DNA of 64,000 nt. Origin: Acidobacteriota bacterium. Lineage in GTDB: Bacteria > Acidobacteriota > Terriglobia > Acidiferrales > UBA7541. The stretch spans positions 1 to 64,000 of the forward strand of contig JABCZR010000002.1 in the NCBI GenBank assembly GCA_013289585.1. The letters are read 5' to 3'. The notes beneath the pieces were generated by a model, which saw only the letters and a list, made by a program, of their open reading frames with translations, ran no database searches and was not told where the DNA came from. Positions 1,943-61,939 of this stretch are shown here, piece after piece. Each line of letters opens with the position of its first letter. Position 1 is the first letter of the stretch. The position numbers and the translations under genes are program-made.

Positions 1943-3315
1943 GATTCCCCCTGGAATGCTTCAGAACTCGTTTTGAACGCCACACCGCCTGCTCCGGAGG
2001 CGTGCTCAGAAGTGGGCGTGACGCGCCTTGGCAAAAGCAATGACAAGCAAGCGGAGATAAGGAAGGAAATGCCGGCGCAGATGAGGCCGTTGTAAAAGCT
2101 ACCGGTCTTTTGGCGAATCAGACCTACCGTGTAAGGTCCGACAAAACCGCCGAAGTTGGCGACCGATGTCACTAGCGCAATGCCCGCAGCTGCTGAGGAG
2201 CTGGTCAGGAATTCGCCGGGCAACGAGAAAAAGATAGGCAAAAAGCTGTAGGCTCCGACAGCGACGATCGAAAAAAGAACAACAGAGAAGAAGGGCGAGC
2301 GAGGCCCTCCGAGCAGCAGGAAGGCAATTCCGGCTAGAGCGCCCAAGGTTGCCATGTGATACCGGCGCTCCAGCGTGCGGTCCGAGTGCCGGGACACAAG
2401 GATCATGGCCATCAGAGCAACCAGATTGGGGACCATGACCGCGAACCCAATCACCGTGTTGGACTGTCCGCCAAAAATTGACTTCATGACCTGCGGCAGC
2501 CAGAAGCCAAAGGTGTAGGAGGCAAAGCCGTGACAAAAGCCGATACAAGCCAGATGCCAGACTCTGCGGTTCACCAGAGTCCGTGCCACGGAAACGGATT
2601 GCTTCCTTGCACCGAGCTTTAGCAGGTCTTCTCGCTCCAATTGGTCGGCGATCCACGCCTTTTCATTTTCGGTCAAAAAACTCGCCTCTGTCGGTTTGCT
2701 CGGCAACAGGACAGGCACCAGAAACGCGAACGTTGCGGCCGGCAAACCTTCCAGGATGAGCAGCCATCTCCAACTACTGAGGCCGAACCAGTGCGCGTGA
2801 TCCAGAATGAATCCTGAAATTGGGCCACCCAATGCGCTGCCCAAGGGTATGCCTATCAAAATCAAAGCAATCGCCTGCGCCTTTTCTCTTTGCCGGAACC
2901 AGTAGCCCAAGTACAGAACGATGCCCGGAAAGTATCCAGACTCCGCGAGACCAAGCGCAAAGCGGGCGACATAGAGCTGATGGACGGATTGCACAAACCC
3001 CGTTAGGGTGGCAACCGCGCCCCAGGTGATCAGGATGCGGGCGATCCAGACACGCGCGCCAATCTTGTGAAGGATGAGGTTGCTGGGGATCTCGAACAAG
3101 AAGTAACCCCAAAAGAAAATTCCTGCTGCAAATCCGAACTGCTGGCTGGTGATCGCCAGCTCCCGATTCATGGTTAGCGCCGCGAATCCCAGGTTGATTC
3201 TGTCGATGAAGGCAAGCACAAAAAGTACAAACAGGAATGGCAGGAGTTTAATCCTGAGCTTGCGGATCGTCGCCGCCTCGACCGCGGTCGAAACATTGCT
3301 AGGGACTCTTGCCAT
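1939..3315 (-). CDS. MFS transporter, anion:cation symporter (ACS)-like
   Basis: The product has about 458 residues and twelve predicted membrane helices. The N-terminal DRINLGFAALTM segment, the FEIPSNLILHKIGAR loop and the ARFALGLAESGYFPGIVLYL helix are typical of the ACS family, which carries organic anions such as tartrate, galactonate, hexuronates and hydroxyphenylacetate. I start the gene at the ATG preceded by GGAGG five bases upstream (MARVPS), not at the longer open frame 15 codons earlier. It is coupled to the putative oxygenase downstream and diverges from the winged-helix–TPR regulator at 3429, a natural candidate for its control. The substrate is unknown but is probably a small carboxylate. 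Confidence 0.85.
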   Translation of the reverse strand: MARVPSNVSTAVEAATIRKLRIKLLPFLFVLFVLAFIDRINLGFAALTMNRELAITSQQFGFAAGIFFWGYFLFEIPSNLILHKIGARVWIARILITWGAVATLTGFVQSVHQLYVARFALGLAESGYFPGIVLYLGYWFRQREKAQAIALILIGIPLGSALGGPISGFILDHAHWFGLSSWRWLLILEGLPAATFAFLVPVLLPSKPTEASFLTENEKAWIADQLEREDLLKLGARKQSVSVARTLVNRRVWHLACIGFCHGFASYTFGFWLPQVMKSIFGGQSNTVIGFAVMVPNLVALMAMILVSRHSDRTLERRYHMATLGALAGIAFLLLGGPRSPFFSVVLFSIVAVGAYSFLPIFFSLPGEFLTSSSAAAGIALVTSVANFGGFVGPYTVGLIRQKTGSFYNGLICAGISFLISACLSLLLPRRVTPTSEHASGAGGVAFKTSSEAFQGES

Positions 3316-46674: not shown

Positions 46675-46709
46675 CAAAAAACTCCTGGAGCCGGCAGGCT
46701 GCCAGGAGT
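46675..46709 (-). terminator. Riboswitch-controlled terminator before crcB
   Basis: On the minus strand ACTCCTGG (46709–46702) pairs with CCAGGAGT (46688–46681), with an additional AGCC/GGCT inner stem, then TTTTTTG. The first arm overlaps the ACTCC that is needed in the aptamer pseudoknot. So ligand-bound aptamer should block this terminator. Confidence 0.9.
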
Positions 46710-46762
46710 CATCAGCCCAAGTGGACTTCACAGGGGCGGTTATGGCGAACTCCATCGCCATT
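46702..46762 (-). promoter_or_regulatory. Fluoride riboswitch aptamer (crcB motif)
   Basis: The minus strand reads GGCGATGGAGTTCGCC, then ATAACCGCCCC, then GGGCTGATGACTCC, the conserved order of the fluoride aptamer: GGNGATGGNNTTCGCC hairpin, AACCGCC, and TGATGACTCC that pairs back with GGAG in the first loop. The adjacent terminator and the crcB gene downstream confirm it. It should be an ON switch: fluoride stabilises the pseudoknot, withholds ACTCC and permits read-through. Confidence 0.95.
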
Positions 46763-46889
46763 CGAGATTTCGACTAAGTTTAACAAATTCCGGAGCGCGA
46801 AAATGCAAAATCCAGGAAAGGGCCGCAGGTGGTAAGCAGAGAGGCAAGAATCAAGGCGGAGCTAGAAATGGAAAGCTATGTCCAAGGCA

Positions 46890-59499: not shown

Positions 59500-60270
59500 G
59501 TGACCGACCCGCAAGAAACCGTTCAACTTCTGCTTGATGATCGCACGGCGTGGGTTACGCTTGCCCGCCCGCCGCTTAATATTCTGGACATTCCGATGAT
59601 GGAAGCGCTGGATGCTGTCCTGGTGCGCGCGCTTCCCAAATGCAATTTCATTGTAATTCAGGGGGCAGGCCCCAAAGCTTTTTCCGCTGGAGCGGAGATT
59701 GCCGACCACGCTCCTGAGCGCGTCGAGAAAATGCTGTCCGCATTTCACGCGGTGTTTCGCCGCCTTGCGGAAGCCAGCTGCGTGAAAATTGCCGCAGTGC
59801 ACGGATATTGCCTAGGCGGGGGAATGGAGCTCGCCAGCTTCTGCGATTTTGTGCTGGCCACTGAGTCCGCGCAGTTTGGACAACCGGAAATTAAGCTAGG
59901 TTGCTTCCCACCTATCGCAATGGTGACACTGCCGAAGCTTATTGGCATGCGCGCGGCCACATATCTCCTTCTGACGGGCCAGCAAATCGGTGCCGGCGAG
60001 GCGCACCGTCTCGGCCTGATCACGCGTGTCGTTGCCGATCACGAGCTTCGCGCCGCGTTGGAAGGTCTCCTTGAGGAATTAGGCGCGCTGAGCCCGGCGG
60101 TTCTCCAATTGGCGCGCAAAACTCTTTGGCATCTGCACGCTGCTGACTTTGCGAGGCAACTCCAGGAAGTAGAACGCGTATACTTATCCGGGCTGATGAA
60201 GACCCACGACGCGCAAGAGGGCATCCGCGCATTTCTGGAAAAACGCCAACCAATCTGGAAGGGAAAATAG
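59500..60270 (+). CDS. Enoyl-CoA hydratase family, dienoyl-CoA hydratase-like
   Basis: The 256-residue protein begins MTDPQETVQLLLDDRTAWVTLARPPLNILDIPMMEALDA; the LARPPLNILDI string is typical of cyclohexa-1,5-dienecarbonyl-CoA hydratases. KAFSAGAEIADHAPERV and HGYCLGGGMELASFCDFVLATESAQFGQPEIKLGCFPP complete the crotonase signature. Aromatic-CoA degradation is a possible role; other genes of that route are not seen here. The GTG start is 27 bp after the first hydratase. Confidence 0.85.
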   Translation: MTDPQETVQLLLDDRTAWVTLARPPLNILDIPMMEALDAVLVRALPKCNFIVIQGAGPKAFSAGAEIADHAPERVEKMLSAFHAVFRRLAEASCVKIAAVHGYCLGGGMELASFCDFVLATESAQFGQPEIKLGCFPPIAMVTLPKLIGMRAATYLLLTGQQIGAGEAHRLGLITRVVADHELRAALEGLLEELGALSPAVLQLARKTLWHLHAADFARQLQEVERVYLSGLMKTHDAQEGIRAFLEKRQPIWKGK

Positions 60271-60594
60271 ATGGATGAATTGGAGATAACGCCGGCGGCG
60301 GTAAAAGCTCGGCTGGACCGCGGCGAAAAGCTGGTTCTTATTGATGTGCGCGAACCCTGGGAACATCAGCTCTGCAGTATCGAAGGCGCAAAACTCGTTC
60401 CGTTGGGTTCGCTGGCGGCCAACTTGCAGATGCTTCCGGATGTGGACGAACTGATTTGCTATTGCCACCATGGCATGCGCAGTCTGGACGCGGCGGCGTG
60501 GCTGCGGTTTCAGGGAATTGAGAAGGCGAAATCCTTGGCTGGCGGAATCGAGCGCTGGTCCGTGGAGATCGATCCAAAAGTTCCGCGCTACTAG
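60271..60594 (+). CDS. Rhodanese-like sulfurtransferase
   Basis: The 107-residue single rhodanese domain has LVLIDVREPWEHQLCSIEGAKLVPLGSL and the active-site loop CYCHHGMRSLDAAAWL with Cys in the expected place. Rhodaneses carry sulfur as a persulfide. It starts immediately after the stop of the second hydratase (zero spacing). The next gene is the predicted selenoprotein, so the pair may act in thiol or selenium chemistry; this is inference. Confidence 0.87.
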   Translation: MDELEITPAAVKARLDRGEKLVLIDVREPWEHQLCSIEGAKLVPLGSLAANLQMLPDVDELICYCHHGMRSLDAAAWLRFQGIEKAKSLAGGIERWSVEIDPKVPRY

Positions 60595-60651
60595 GGCATT
60601 GTTTTTCGCGGGCGCTCAGGGCTTGAGAGTTTGCGTATACGGGGAGATTGC

Positions 60652-61005
60652 TTGCCAAAGGTGAAAATAAAGTTTCTCCAGAAGCCGACGTGAACCACGT
60701 GCCGCAAAGCAAGAGGTCTCTTGCTGGAACTCGGCGCCGATCTTGAATCGCGCGATTTGGACAAAGAGCGGCTTTCCGAAGCCGAACTCGATGAGCTGAT
60801 GGGAAGCCGCGATTATAAAGAATTTCTGAATGCGCGAAATGAGCTCTATCGCGCGCGAAACATGAAAGAGCATCCACCTACGCGCGCGGAAGCGATCAAG
60901 CTGATGGCCAAGAATCCGAATCTCATCCGCAGGCCTGTGGTGCTGCGCGGATCGGAAATGGTGTTGGGTTTTGATGAGGAAGCCTTCAAGAAACTGGTGA
61001 AGTGA
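60652..61005 (+). CDS. ArsC/Spx-like predicted selenoprotein (UxxC)
   Basis: The downstream part (SRDLDKERLSEAELDELMG, YKEFLNARNELYRARNMKE, LIRRPVVLRGSEMVLGFDEE) is an ArsC/Spx-family thioredoxin fold. Read upstream in the same frame it continues through TGA: MPKVKIKFLQKPT-U-TTCRKARGLLL. The family motif is KPTCxxCRKA, so TGA replaces the first Cys (residue 14) while the second (Cys17) is kept. A start at TTG 60652 has GGGGAG five bases upstream and gives 117 residues, the normal length. A hairpin with GGTC loop follows the TGA at the distance of a bacterial SECIS. I read it as a selenoprotein. The alternative is a nonsense mutation with a shorter product from TTG 60721. Confidence 0.8.
60691..60693 (+). 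other. In-frame UGA, predicted selenocysteine codon
   Basis: TGA sits between ACG and ACC where homologues have a cysteine codon. It is the only stop between the TTG start and the end of the gene. Confidence 0.78.
60699..60737 (+). promoter_or_regulatory. Predicted bacterial SECIS element
   Basis: The upper stem is GCAAGA (60709–60714) / TCTTGC (60719–60724), exact, with apical GGTC (60715–60718). The loop context AGGTCT equals that of the E. coli fdhF SECIS. The lower stem is GTGCCG (60699–60704) / CGGCGC (60732–60737) with one G·U pair. GGTC begins 21 nt after the UGA, within the range at which SelB–Sec-tRNA insertion works. Confidence 0.78.
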
Positions 61006-61030
61006 TGATTCTCCGATGGGAGATCAAAGG

Positions 61031-61939
61031 ATGAATGTAAAGACCATCGCGGTGATTGGCGCCGGAACCATGGGGCGAGGAATCGCCTACGCGGCTGCGT
61101 TTGGCGGCTACGCAACCGTCCTCGAGGATATTTCCCGGCCCAGGCTGGAGCAGGCGGTCAGCTGGATCCGGAAAGCCTTCGAGGAAGGCGTTGCGCGCGG
61201 GAAGGTGGAGACCGCGGTAAGCGACAAAGCACTCGCCTTGATTTCCACCGCCAGCAACGTCGAGGATGCCATCCGCGAGGCAGATCTCATCATCGAAGCC
61301 GTCCCGGAAGAATTGGAAATGAAGCTCGAACTGTTCACCATCTTCGACAAATTTGCCAAGACGGGAGCGATATTCGCGAGCAATACTTCTTCTCTTTCGA
61401 TCACGGATTTCACGGACGTCACCGTTTCACGCGATCGCTGCGTGGGCATGCATTTCTTCAACCCCGTTCCGAAAATGAAGCTCATCGAACTCGTCCGGAC
61501 GCCGCATACATCTGATGAAACGGTCGCCACTTGCCAAGAAGTCGCGAGGCGCATGGGCAAAGAAGTAGTGCTGGTCAACGAAGCGCCCGGTTTCATCACT
61601 ACGCGGATCAACGCGCTCATCGGCAACGAAGCTTTCCATATGCTCGAAGCAGGCATCGCCTCGGCAAGAGACATCGACAAAGCGCTGAAGCTTGGACTGA
61701 ACCATCCCATGGGGCCTTTCGAGCTTGTTGATCTCGTCGGCCTCGATGTCCGCCTCAATATTCTGGATTATCTGCATCGCACGCTCGGTGAAAAATACCG
61801 GCCCAATTCCTTGTTGCGCCGATACGTTCAGGAAGGCCGCTTAGGCCGAAAGACCGGCCGCGGCGTTTACAATTACCCTGAAGAAAATGCGGCAGAAGAG
61901 AAAGCGTGGCCATACGAGGCAGGAAAGAACGCACGATGA
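61031..61939 (+). CDS. 3-hydroxyacyl-CoA (3-hydroxybutyryl-CoA) dehydrogenase
   Basis: The 302-residue enzyme starts at MNVKTIAVIGAGTMGRGIAYAAAFGG, the Rossmann NAD loop. FASNTSSLSITDFTDVTVSRDRCVGMHFFNPVPKMKLIELVRTPHTSDET carries the catalytic His of the HFFNP motif. GFITTRINALIGNEAFHMLEAGIAS … NHPMGPFELVDLVGLDVRLNIL completes it. It oxidises (S)-3-hydroxyacyl-CoA. I choose the ATG at 61031 with GGGAG upstream over the ATG at 61016. Its stop overlaps the macrodomain gene's ATG (ATGA). Confidence 0.92.
   Translation: MNVKTIAVIGAGTMGRGIAYAAAFGGYATVLEDISRPRLEQAVSWIRKAFEEGVARGKVETAVSDKALALISTASNVEDAIREADLIIEAVPEELEMKLELFTIFDKFAKTGAIFASNTSSLSITDFTDVTVSRDRCVGMHFFNPVPKMKLIELVRTPHTSDETVATCQEVARRMGKEVVLVNEAPGFITTRINALIGNEAFHMLEAGIASARDIDKALKLGLNHPMGPFELVDLVGLDVRLNILDYLHRTLGEKYRPNSLLRRYVQEGRLGRKTGRGVYNYPEENAAEEKAWPYEAGKNAR

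Follow-up and report, generated by a model that had tools for sequence, protein, structure and literature searches.

A UGA codon within the active-site motif of an ArsC/Spx-like gene

The window (the whole 64,000-nt stretch of Acidobacteriota DNA analyzed here) carries, near its end, a short gene between a rhodanese gene and a 3-hydroxyacyl-CoA dehydrogenase gene. Its reading frame passes through a TGA that we interpret as a selenocysteine (Sec) codon. The features of the locus are listed in order of position.

59500–60270, plus strand: enoyl-CoA hydratase/isomerase gene, upstream neighbor (Pfam ECH_1)
60271–60594, plus strand: single-domain rhodanese gene, directly upstream (Pfam Rhodanese, 58.1 bits)
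60641–60646, plus strand: GGGGAG, ribosome-binding-site-like, 5 nt ahead of the TTG start (from the sequence)
60652–61005, plus strand: predicted Sec-containing ArsC/Spx-like gene, 117 residues, TTG start, TGA stop at 61003–61005 (translation; Pfam ArsC, 65.5 bits)
60691–60693, plus strand: in-frame TGA, putative Sec codon, residue 14, forming UxxC with Cys17 (TGA, TGC, or TGT in 142 of 142 aligned rows; Sec machinery in the same genome)
60699–60737, plus strand: predicted lower stem, 60699–60704 with 60732–60737 (minimum free energy fold only)
60708–60725, plus strand: predicted SECIS upper stem, 7 bp, apical loop GGTC at 60715–60718 (fold, stem counts in the family, covariation)
61016–61939, plus strand: 3-hydroxyacyl-CoA dehydrogenase gene, downstream neighbor (Pfam 3HCDH_N/3HCDH)

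Read through, positions 60652–61005 give a protein that begins LPKVKIKFLQKPTUTTCRKARGLLL, with TGA as codon 14 inside KPT-U-TTC-RKA. The match of this protein to Pfam ArsC (PF03960) is well above the cut-off of 24 bits, and both the KPT ahead of the TGA and the residues behind it are conserved among homologs. A first-pass annotation of this DNA had proposed an in-frame TGA in an ArsC/Spx-like gene, started by TTG 60652 with GGGGAG five bases upstream; the first proposal is confirmed, and the second is supported. Among the 22 closest rows listed (two of them near-copies of other rows), 20 have a start codon (TTG, ATG, or GTG) at the position of TTG 60652, and purine-rich stretches like GGGGAG are visible by eye in other close rows. 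Automatic annotation could easily shorten or overlook such a gene.

Fold, family, and known relatives

An AlphaFold model of the protein (mean pLDDT 92.0, pTM 0.79, 6 sequences) was compared with known structures using Foldseek. The nearest folds were Spx, ArsC-related proteins, and YffB, with the Spx structures 3gfk, 1z3e, and 3l78 at a query TM of 0.71–0.83. The fold, together with the PF03960 score, places the protein in the ArsC family. Across 37 rows of the family, C17 is nearly invariant and Pro95 is invariant, and the latter appears to occupy the cis-proline place of the thioredoxin fold.

The protein also has the [CU]xxCRKAR motif of Spx. Its fold and its best NCBIfam match, TIGR01617 (Spx/MgsR; best E-value in the family 6.8e-24 among 37 members), would agree with a Spx-type regulator that binds RNA polymerase and uses UxxC as a redox switch. 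We consider such a role improbable, since the window protein scores 69.5 bits, under the TIGR01617 cut-off of 75.05, the position of the Spx loop glycine (presumably Gly52 of Bacillus Spx) falls in an alignment gap, and the Spx C-terminal tail is absent. A bolder version, slightly less probable again, is a selenium-based transcription switch: a Spx/MgsR-like partner of RNA polymerase with Sec as its sensor, in which the Sec codon and hairpin of one genus (g5, below) were perhaps regained. Were it true, selenium status and oxidants would set the expression of the nearby fatty-acid genes.

The Pfam match and the ArsC-like fold might equally suggest a true selenocysteine arsenate reductase, which we regard as very unlikely. 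At the positions of the catalytic arginines of E. coli R773 ArsC, which we take to be 60, 94, and 107 (R60 also appears in PDB titles), the window protein has Asn60, Arg94, and Phe107, as read via the alignments of the window with locus L198 and of L198 with R773 ArsC. Its score against TIGR00014 is 36.4 bits, compared with a cut-off of 106.05. Because two of the three catalytic arginines are absent, the name "arsenate reductase" is unsuitable for this protein.

Sec-containing ArsC-like proteins are already cataloged, and the one described here is a new member of that kind, found across Acidobacteriota. One of the names under which they are filed, cd03032, we take to denote the ArsC_Spx class. 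In the available portions of the sources, "ArsC-like" selenoproteins were listed from two deltaproteobacteria in 2006 (PMC1794560), an "Arsenate reductase 1" (UxxS) and an "Arsenate reductase 2" (UxxC; cd03032) followed in 2008 (PMC2398784), and both the UxxS and UxxC kinds appear in reviews (PMC9312934, PMC13188914). The first-pass annotation had described such proteins as predicted from metagenomes and little studied; the latter is a fair description, but published accounts of the kind date back to 2006–2008. As for the phylum, the available portions of two reports give counts without names: four selenoproteins of three families in Acidobacteria (PMC1794560) and, in 2025, three known selenoprotein genes for the acidobacterium Occallatibacter riparius (PMC12013277). 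PMC5029168 makes no mention of ArsC, arsenate reductase, or "Acidobacteri," and a partial literature search found no report of this ArsC-like Sec family in Acidobacteriota.

Besides Spx, three known groups come close. Like Arsenate reductase 2 of the Global Ocean Sampling data, as described in the available portion of the report, the window protein is of the ArsC family and has UxxC, with Sec for the first Cys; the likeness is one of description, and Arsenate reductase 2 came from ocean samples (PMC2398784). NF041106 (ArsC_rel_Se_1), described as ArsC-like with UxxC in the available portion of PMC13188914, is matched at E ≤ 0.001 by all 37 members scanned, but the window reaches only 34.4 bits against a cut-off of 85, and the best of the 37 (E = 1.1e-11, an estimated ∼46 bits) is still under it. 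With the UxxS arsenate reductase selenoprotein (TIGR00014), as presented in the available portions of PMC13188914 and PMC9312934, the window protein shares the ArsC fold and a putative Sec nucleophile, but it differs in having UxxC and in lacking the arginine triad.

We also came across other ArsC-like genes. Locus L198 (G071, same class; 2501–2848, minus strand) encodes a UxxS-type arsenate reductase with UGA for the catalytic Cys (HNPQUGKSR), which scores 118.9 bits against TIGR00014 (cut-off 106.05) and keeps all three arginine positions. L194 (G047) and L195 (G078) encode a second UxxC ArsC-like protein (KPTUSTCRE) with the hairpin GGTCAAGA-GGA-TCTTGACC; their TIGR00014 scores of 91.1 and 95.6 bits, respectively, are under the same cut-off, and the three ArsC arginine positions are present in L194.

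Selenocysteine and cysteine codons alternate at one position

The window protein matched 138 of the 399 genomes of its class, and the loci were re-aligned. Within the near family (at least 70 bits), the Sec codon is TGA in 87 genomes and TGC or TGT in 44; six remote genomes, counted apart from these, comprise three with TGA and three with Cys. The alternation of TGC and TGA at codon 14, proposed in the first-pass annotation as something to look for among homologs, is seen at exactly that codon. The UGA is in frame at a position where homologs have Cys, which is one mark of a bacterial selenoprotein gene.

No stop other than TGA occurs at the Sec codon in the 142 aligned rows, a set that includes L053 and L054 (near-copies of G064 and G199, kept outside the genome and hairpin counts). 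Two partial loci (G086x and G332x) are without the Sec position, and G350 gave no match on re-search. UAG in G081 and UAA in G280 were considered as replacements of the Sec codon and rejected: Both genomes align with TGC at the Sec position, so the single TAG and single TAA are located elsewhere.

Beyond the class, a phylum-wide search with a profile of 37 rows gave matches in 39 of 396 genomes at E ≤ 1e-22, with a TGA within the match in 23 and none in 16 (one of the 16 begins past the Sec codon). Eight loci outside the class were fetched, and the motif was located in six, all with TGA at the Sec position and with a hairpin. Scans of contigs and plasmids yielded, respectively, two close and three remote relatives and 23 records, the latter all below 60% identity (31%–36% for the ten listed).

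The best tree requires at least 16 changes between U and C, four of which are forced by well-supported (starred) branches. This was a quick tree of 138 rows with the Sec and hairpin residues masked, and with few columns many of its forks are uncertain. Members of the family occur across one bacterial phylum, and several exchanges of selenocysteine and cysteine have taken place among them.

A predicted SECIS hairpin accompanies the TGA

The segment GCAAGA-GGTC-TCTTGC at 60709–60724 pairs with itself, and an additional A-U pair (60708/60725) extends the stem; its AGGTCT tip is, as we take it, similar to that of the E. coli fdhF hairpin. The predicted fold has a lower stem below the hairpin; of 200 shuffled versions of the 55 nt, 10 reach an equally good fold. 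A hairpin 21 nt after the UGA had been claimed at the outset. There is indeed one there, but the 21 nt run from the UGA to the loop; the stem starts 15 nt after the UGA, or 14 nt with the A-U pair included. The published bSECIS model specifies a loop of 3–9 nt, a stem of 4–16 bp, a G in loop positions 1–2, a distance of 16–37 nt from the UGA, and an energy ≤ −7.5 (PMC13188914). The window hairpin falls within all of these ranges (4-nt loop GGTC, 7 bp, 21 nt, −8.5 kcal/mol for the surrounding 30 nt).

Stems of at least 6 bp are present at the SECIS position in 85 of 91 TGA rows versus three of 49 Cys rows (both totals include the six remote genomes), the other six TGA rows being without a 6-bp stem. 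Compared with synonymous recodings, the stem was significant (p ≤ 0.05) in 93% of 89 distinct TGA rows and in 8% of 48 distinct Cys rows. Taken by itself, the window had p = 0.012 for the stem and p = 0.285 for the folding energy, so that its hairpin is not unusually stable. The weight of the hairpin evidence rests on the family and not on the window, for which folding energy alone discriminates poorly.

The stem is found in more than one register relative to the UGA: Registers 51, 52, and 53 have at least five of six pairs in 50, 27, and nine rows, respectively, and five rows fall in none. Most pairs of the window's register are invariant within the class or vary to G-U only. Outside the class, five rows use this register (L215–L219), of which two carry the window's form and three carry GCAAAA-GGTC-UUUUGC. 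In those three, a G-to-A change at +22 (Arg to Lys) is matched by a C-to-U change at +29 that is silent in a Leu codon. In register 52 (27 distinct rows), the pair +20/+32 is C-G, U-G, U-A, or G-C, the U-A and G-C rows belonging to members of the near family. The hairpin accompanies the TGA, shows compensatory changes, and agrees with the published model, which bears out the early suggestion that it fits a bacterial SECIS.

Two genera are of interest for how the hairpin may come and go. Genus g65 has four Cys rows (L051, L052, L111, and L112) that keep a remnant hairpin and two TGA rows in which it is intact; G168, G176, and G192 have an A-C mismatch at +22/+29 (G168 also has one more change outside), and G184 is fully paired. 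Sec was probably lost recently in these Cys rows. Genus g5 has three TGA and 15 Cys genomes, and its TGA genes (L117, L135, and L152) pair the hairpin in register 54, one of the three with a mismatch. AU tests rejected neither a single Cys clade (17 rows, g5 and two of other genera; p = 0.342) nor a single TGA clade (three rows; p = 0.354). The Sec codon and the new-register hairpin of g5 may have been regained from a Cys ancestor.

These patterns leave little room for the TGA being a true stop, in a pseudogene or in a gene whose only start in use lies farther downstream, for example at TTG 60721. A mechanical ORF from that TTG exists, and automatic annotation might pick it, but 87 genomes retain TGA at this codon and conserve the frame on either side of it, solely TGA or Cys codons stand there in the 142 rows, the hairpin accompanies the TGA, and the truncated product would be without the entire UxxC motif; we give this explanation almost no credence.

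Selenocysteine decoding machinery

The genome from which the window comes (G000; 4.73 Mb, 97.2% complete) has a tRNA-Sec (65.6 bits, Rfam cut-off 47), which ARAGORN calls tRNA-SeC with anticodon TCA (UCA). It also has selA (572 bits), selB (363 bits, with SelB winged-helix domains), and selD (353 bits), all above their cut-offs. The expectation that this organism decodes Sec, for which the first-pass annotation had suggested searching for just these genes, was confirmed.

Across the class, 269 of 399 genomes gave a tRNA-Sec match; among those with the family, it was above the cut-off in 73 of 87 TGA genomes and 31 of 44 Cys genomes. The search for selA was limited to the 27 of these genomes that lacked a tRNA-Sec match, and it was positive in 14 of 14 TGA genomes and four of 13 Cys genomes. 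A Sec marker (tRNA-Sec or selA) is present in 87 of 87 TGA genomes versus 35 of 44 Cys genomes (Fisher p = 3e-5, uncorrected for kinship). In genus g21, seven genomes have the family; the three with TGA have tRNA-Sec or selA, and the four with Cys gave neither. Many Cys genomes retain the Sec machinery, presumably for other selenoproteins.

tRNA-Sec was unconfirmed in 14 of the 87 TGA genomes, among them the near-complete G051 (97%), G093 (98%), and G376 (96%), but every one of the 14 carries selA. Gaps in the assemblies or an unusual tRNA may account for these cases. A covariance search with laxer filters gave ∼50-bit matches in six of the 27 genomes lacking a tRNA-Sec match. The candidates in G182, G312, G336, and G309 were rejected, as ARAGORN called them tRNA-Ser or tRNA-Leu; the match in G300 (a Cys genome) was called tRNA-Sec, and the one in G172, which starts at a contig end, gave nothing by ARAGORN. 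A degenerate tRNA-Sec pattern recovered the controls G126 and G110, missed G300, and in several genomes matched the reversed reading equally often; ARAGORN, run on 18 of its 25 loci, called tRNA-Sec in G110 only. On contig C13 of G126 (L225, L238), two identical tRNA-Sec-like pattern matches lie 3.6 kb apart, and the genome scan also counts two.

The 14 genomes would be in line with decoding of the UGA as Cys or another residue by a SECIS-dependent variant tRNA (a selC*-type tRNA-Cys), and such tRNAs are described in other phyla in the available portion of PMC7609411. This possibility deserves as little credence as a true stop: Alongside a tRNA-Sec with anticodon TCA, the genome of the window carries selA and selD, which a variant tRNA would make needless, and tRNA-Sec is above the cut-off in 73 of 87 TGA genomes. 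Judging from the sequences, the ArsC/Spx-type protein very probably uses a UGA-encoded selenocysteine in its active site.

The family offers a natural series of Sec/Cys exchanges, with genera that hold both forms, Cys genomes where the searches turned up no tRNA-Sec and no selA, and four hairpin registers. Close TGA/Cys pairs provide a way to ask what a redox protein of the UxxC type gains from Sec and by what steps a SECIS disappears or shifts.

Gene neighborhood and proposed function

Within the same taxonomic family, 46 of 71 loci have a same-strand rhodanese gene no more than 1.5 kb upstream, as do 23 of 69 other loci. Of 71 loci with rhodanese adjacency, 21 are Cys rows, and because these share it, the adjacency is uninformative on Sec itself. 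Beta-oxidation genes are close by at many loci: 3-hydroxyacyl-CoA dehydrogenase, on the same strand, at 37 of 142 and enoyl-CoA hydratase/isomerase at 55 of 142, both within the available flanks.

We are confident in proposing that the gene encodes a 117-residue thioredoxin-fold selenoprotein of the ArsC/Spx type, made by SelB- and hairpin-dependent Sec insertion, that its UxxC would reduce a disulfide or persulfide, and that the rhodanese may supply or share the substrate. Translation would start at TTG 60652, and SelB carrying Sec-tRNA-Sec would bind the hairpin at 60708–60725, so that Sec is inserted at UGA 60691. In the resulting UxxC center, the selenolate of Sec14 would attack and the thiol of Cys17 would resolve; the center would reduce a disulfide, persulfide, or similar oxidized-sulfur substrate and be re-reduced by a cellular thiol system, with the neighboring rhodanese possibly supplying or sharing the sulfur substrate. 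The analysis establishes by computation the frame, the family, the Sec machinery, the alternation of Sec and Cys, and the conservation of the SECIS, whereas Sec insertion, the UxxC chemistry, the substrate, and the link to the rhodanese are inferences. The protein is best read as a selenol/thiol oxidoreductase acting on disulfides or persulfides, the substrate being our guess.

Elsewhere in the window, a fluoride riboswitch (RF01734, 53.7 bits) lies at 46696–46768 on the minus strand.
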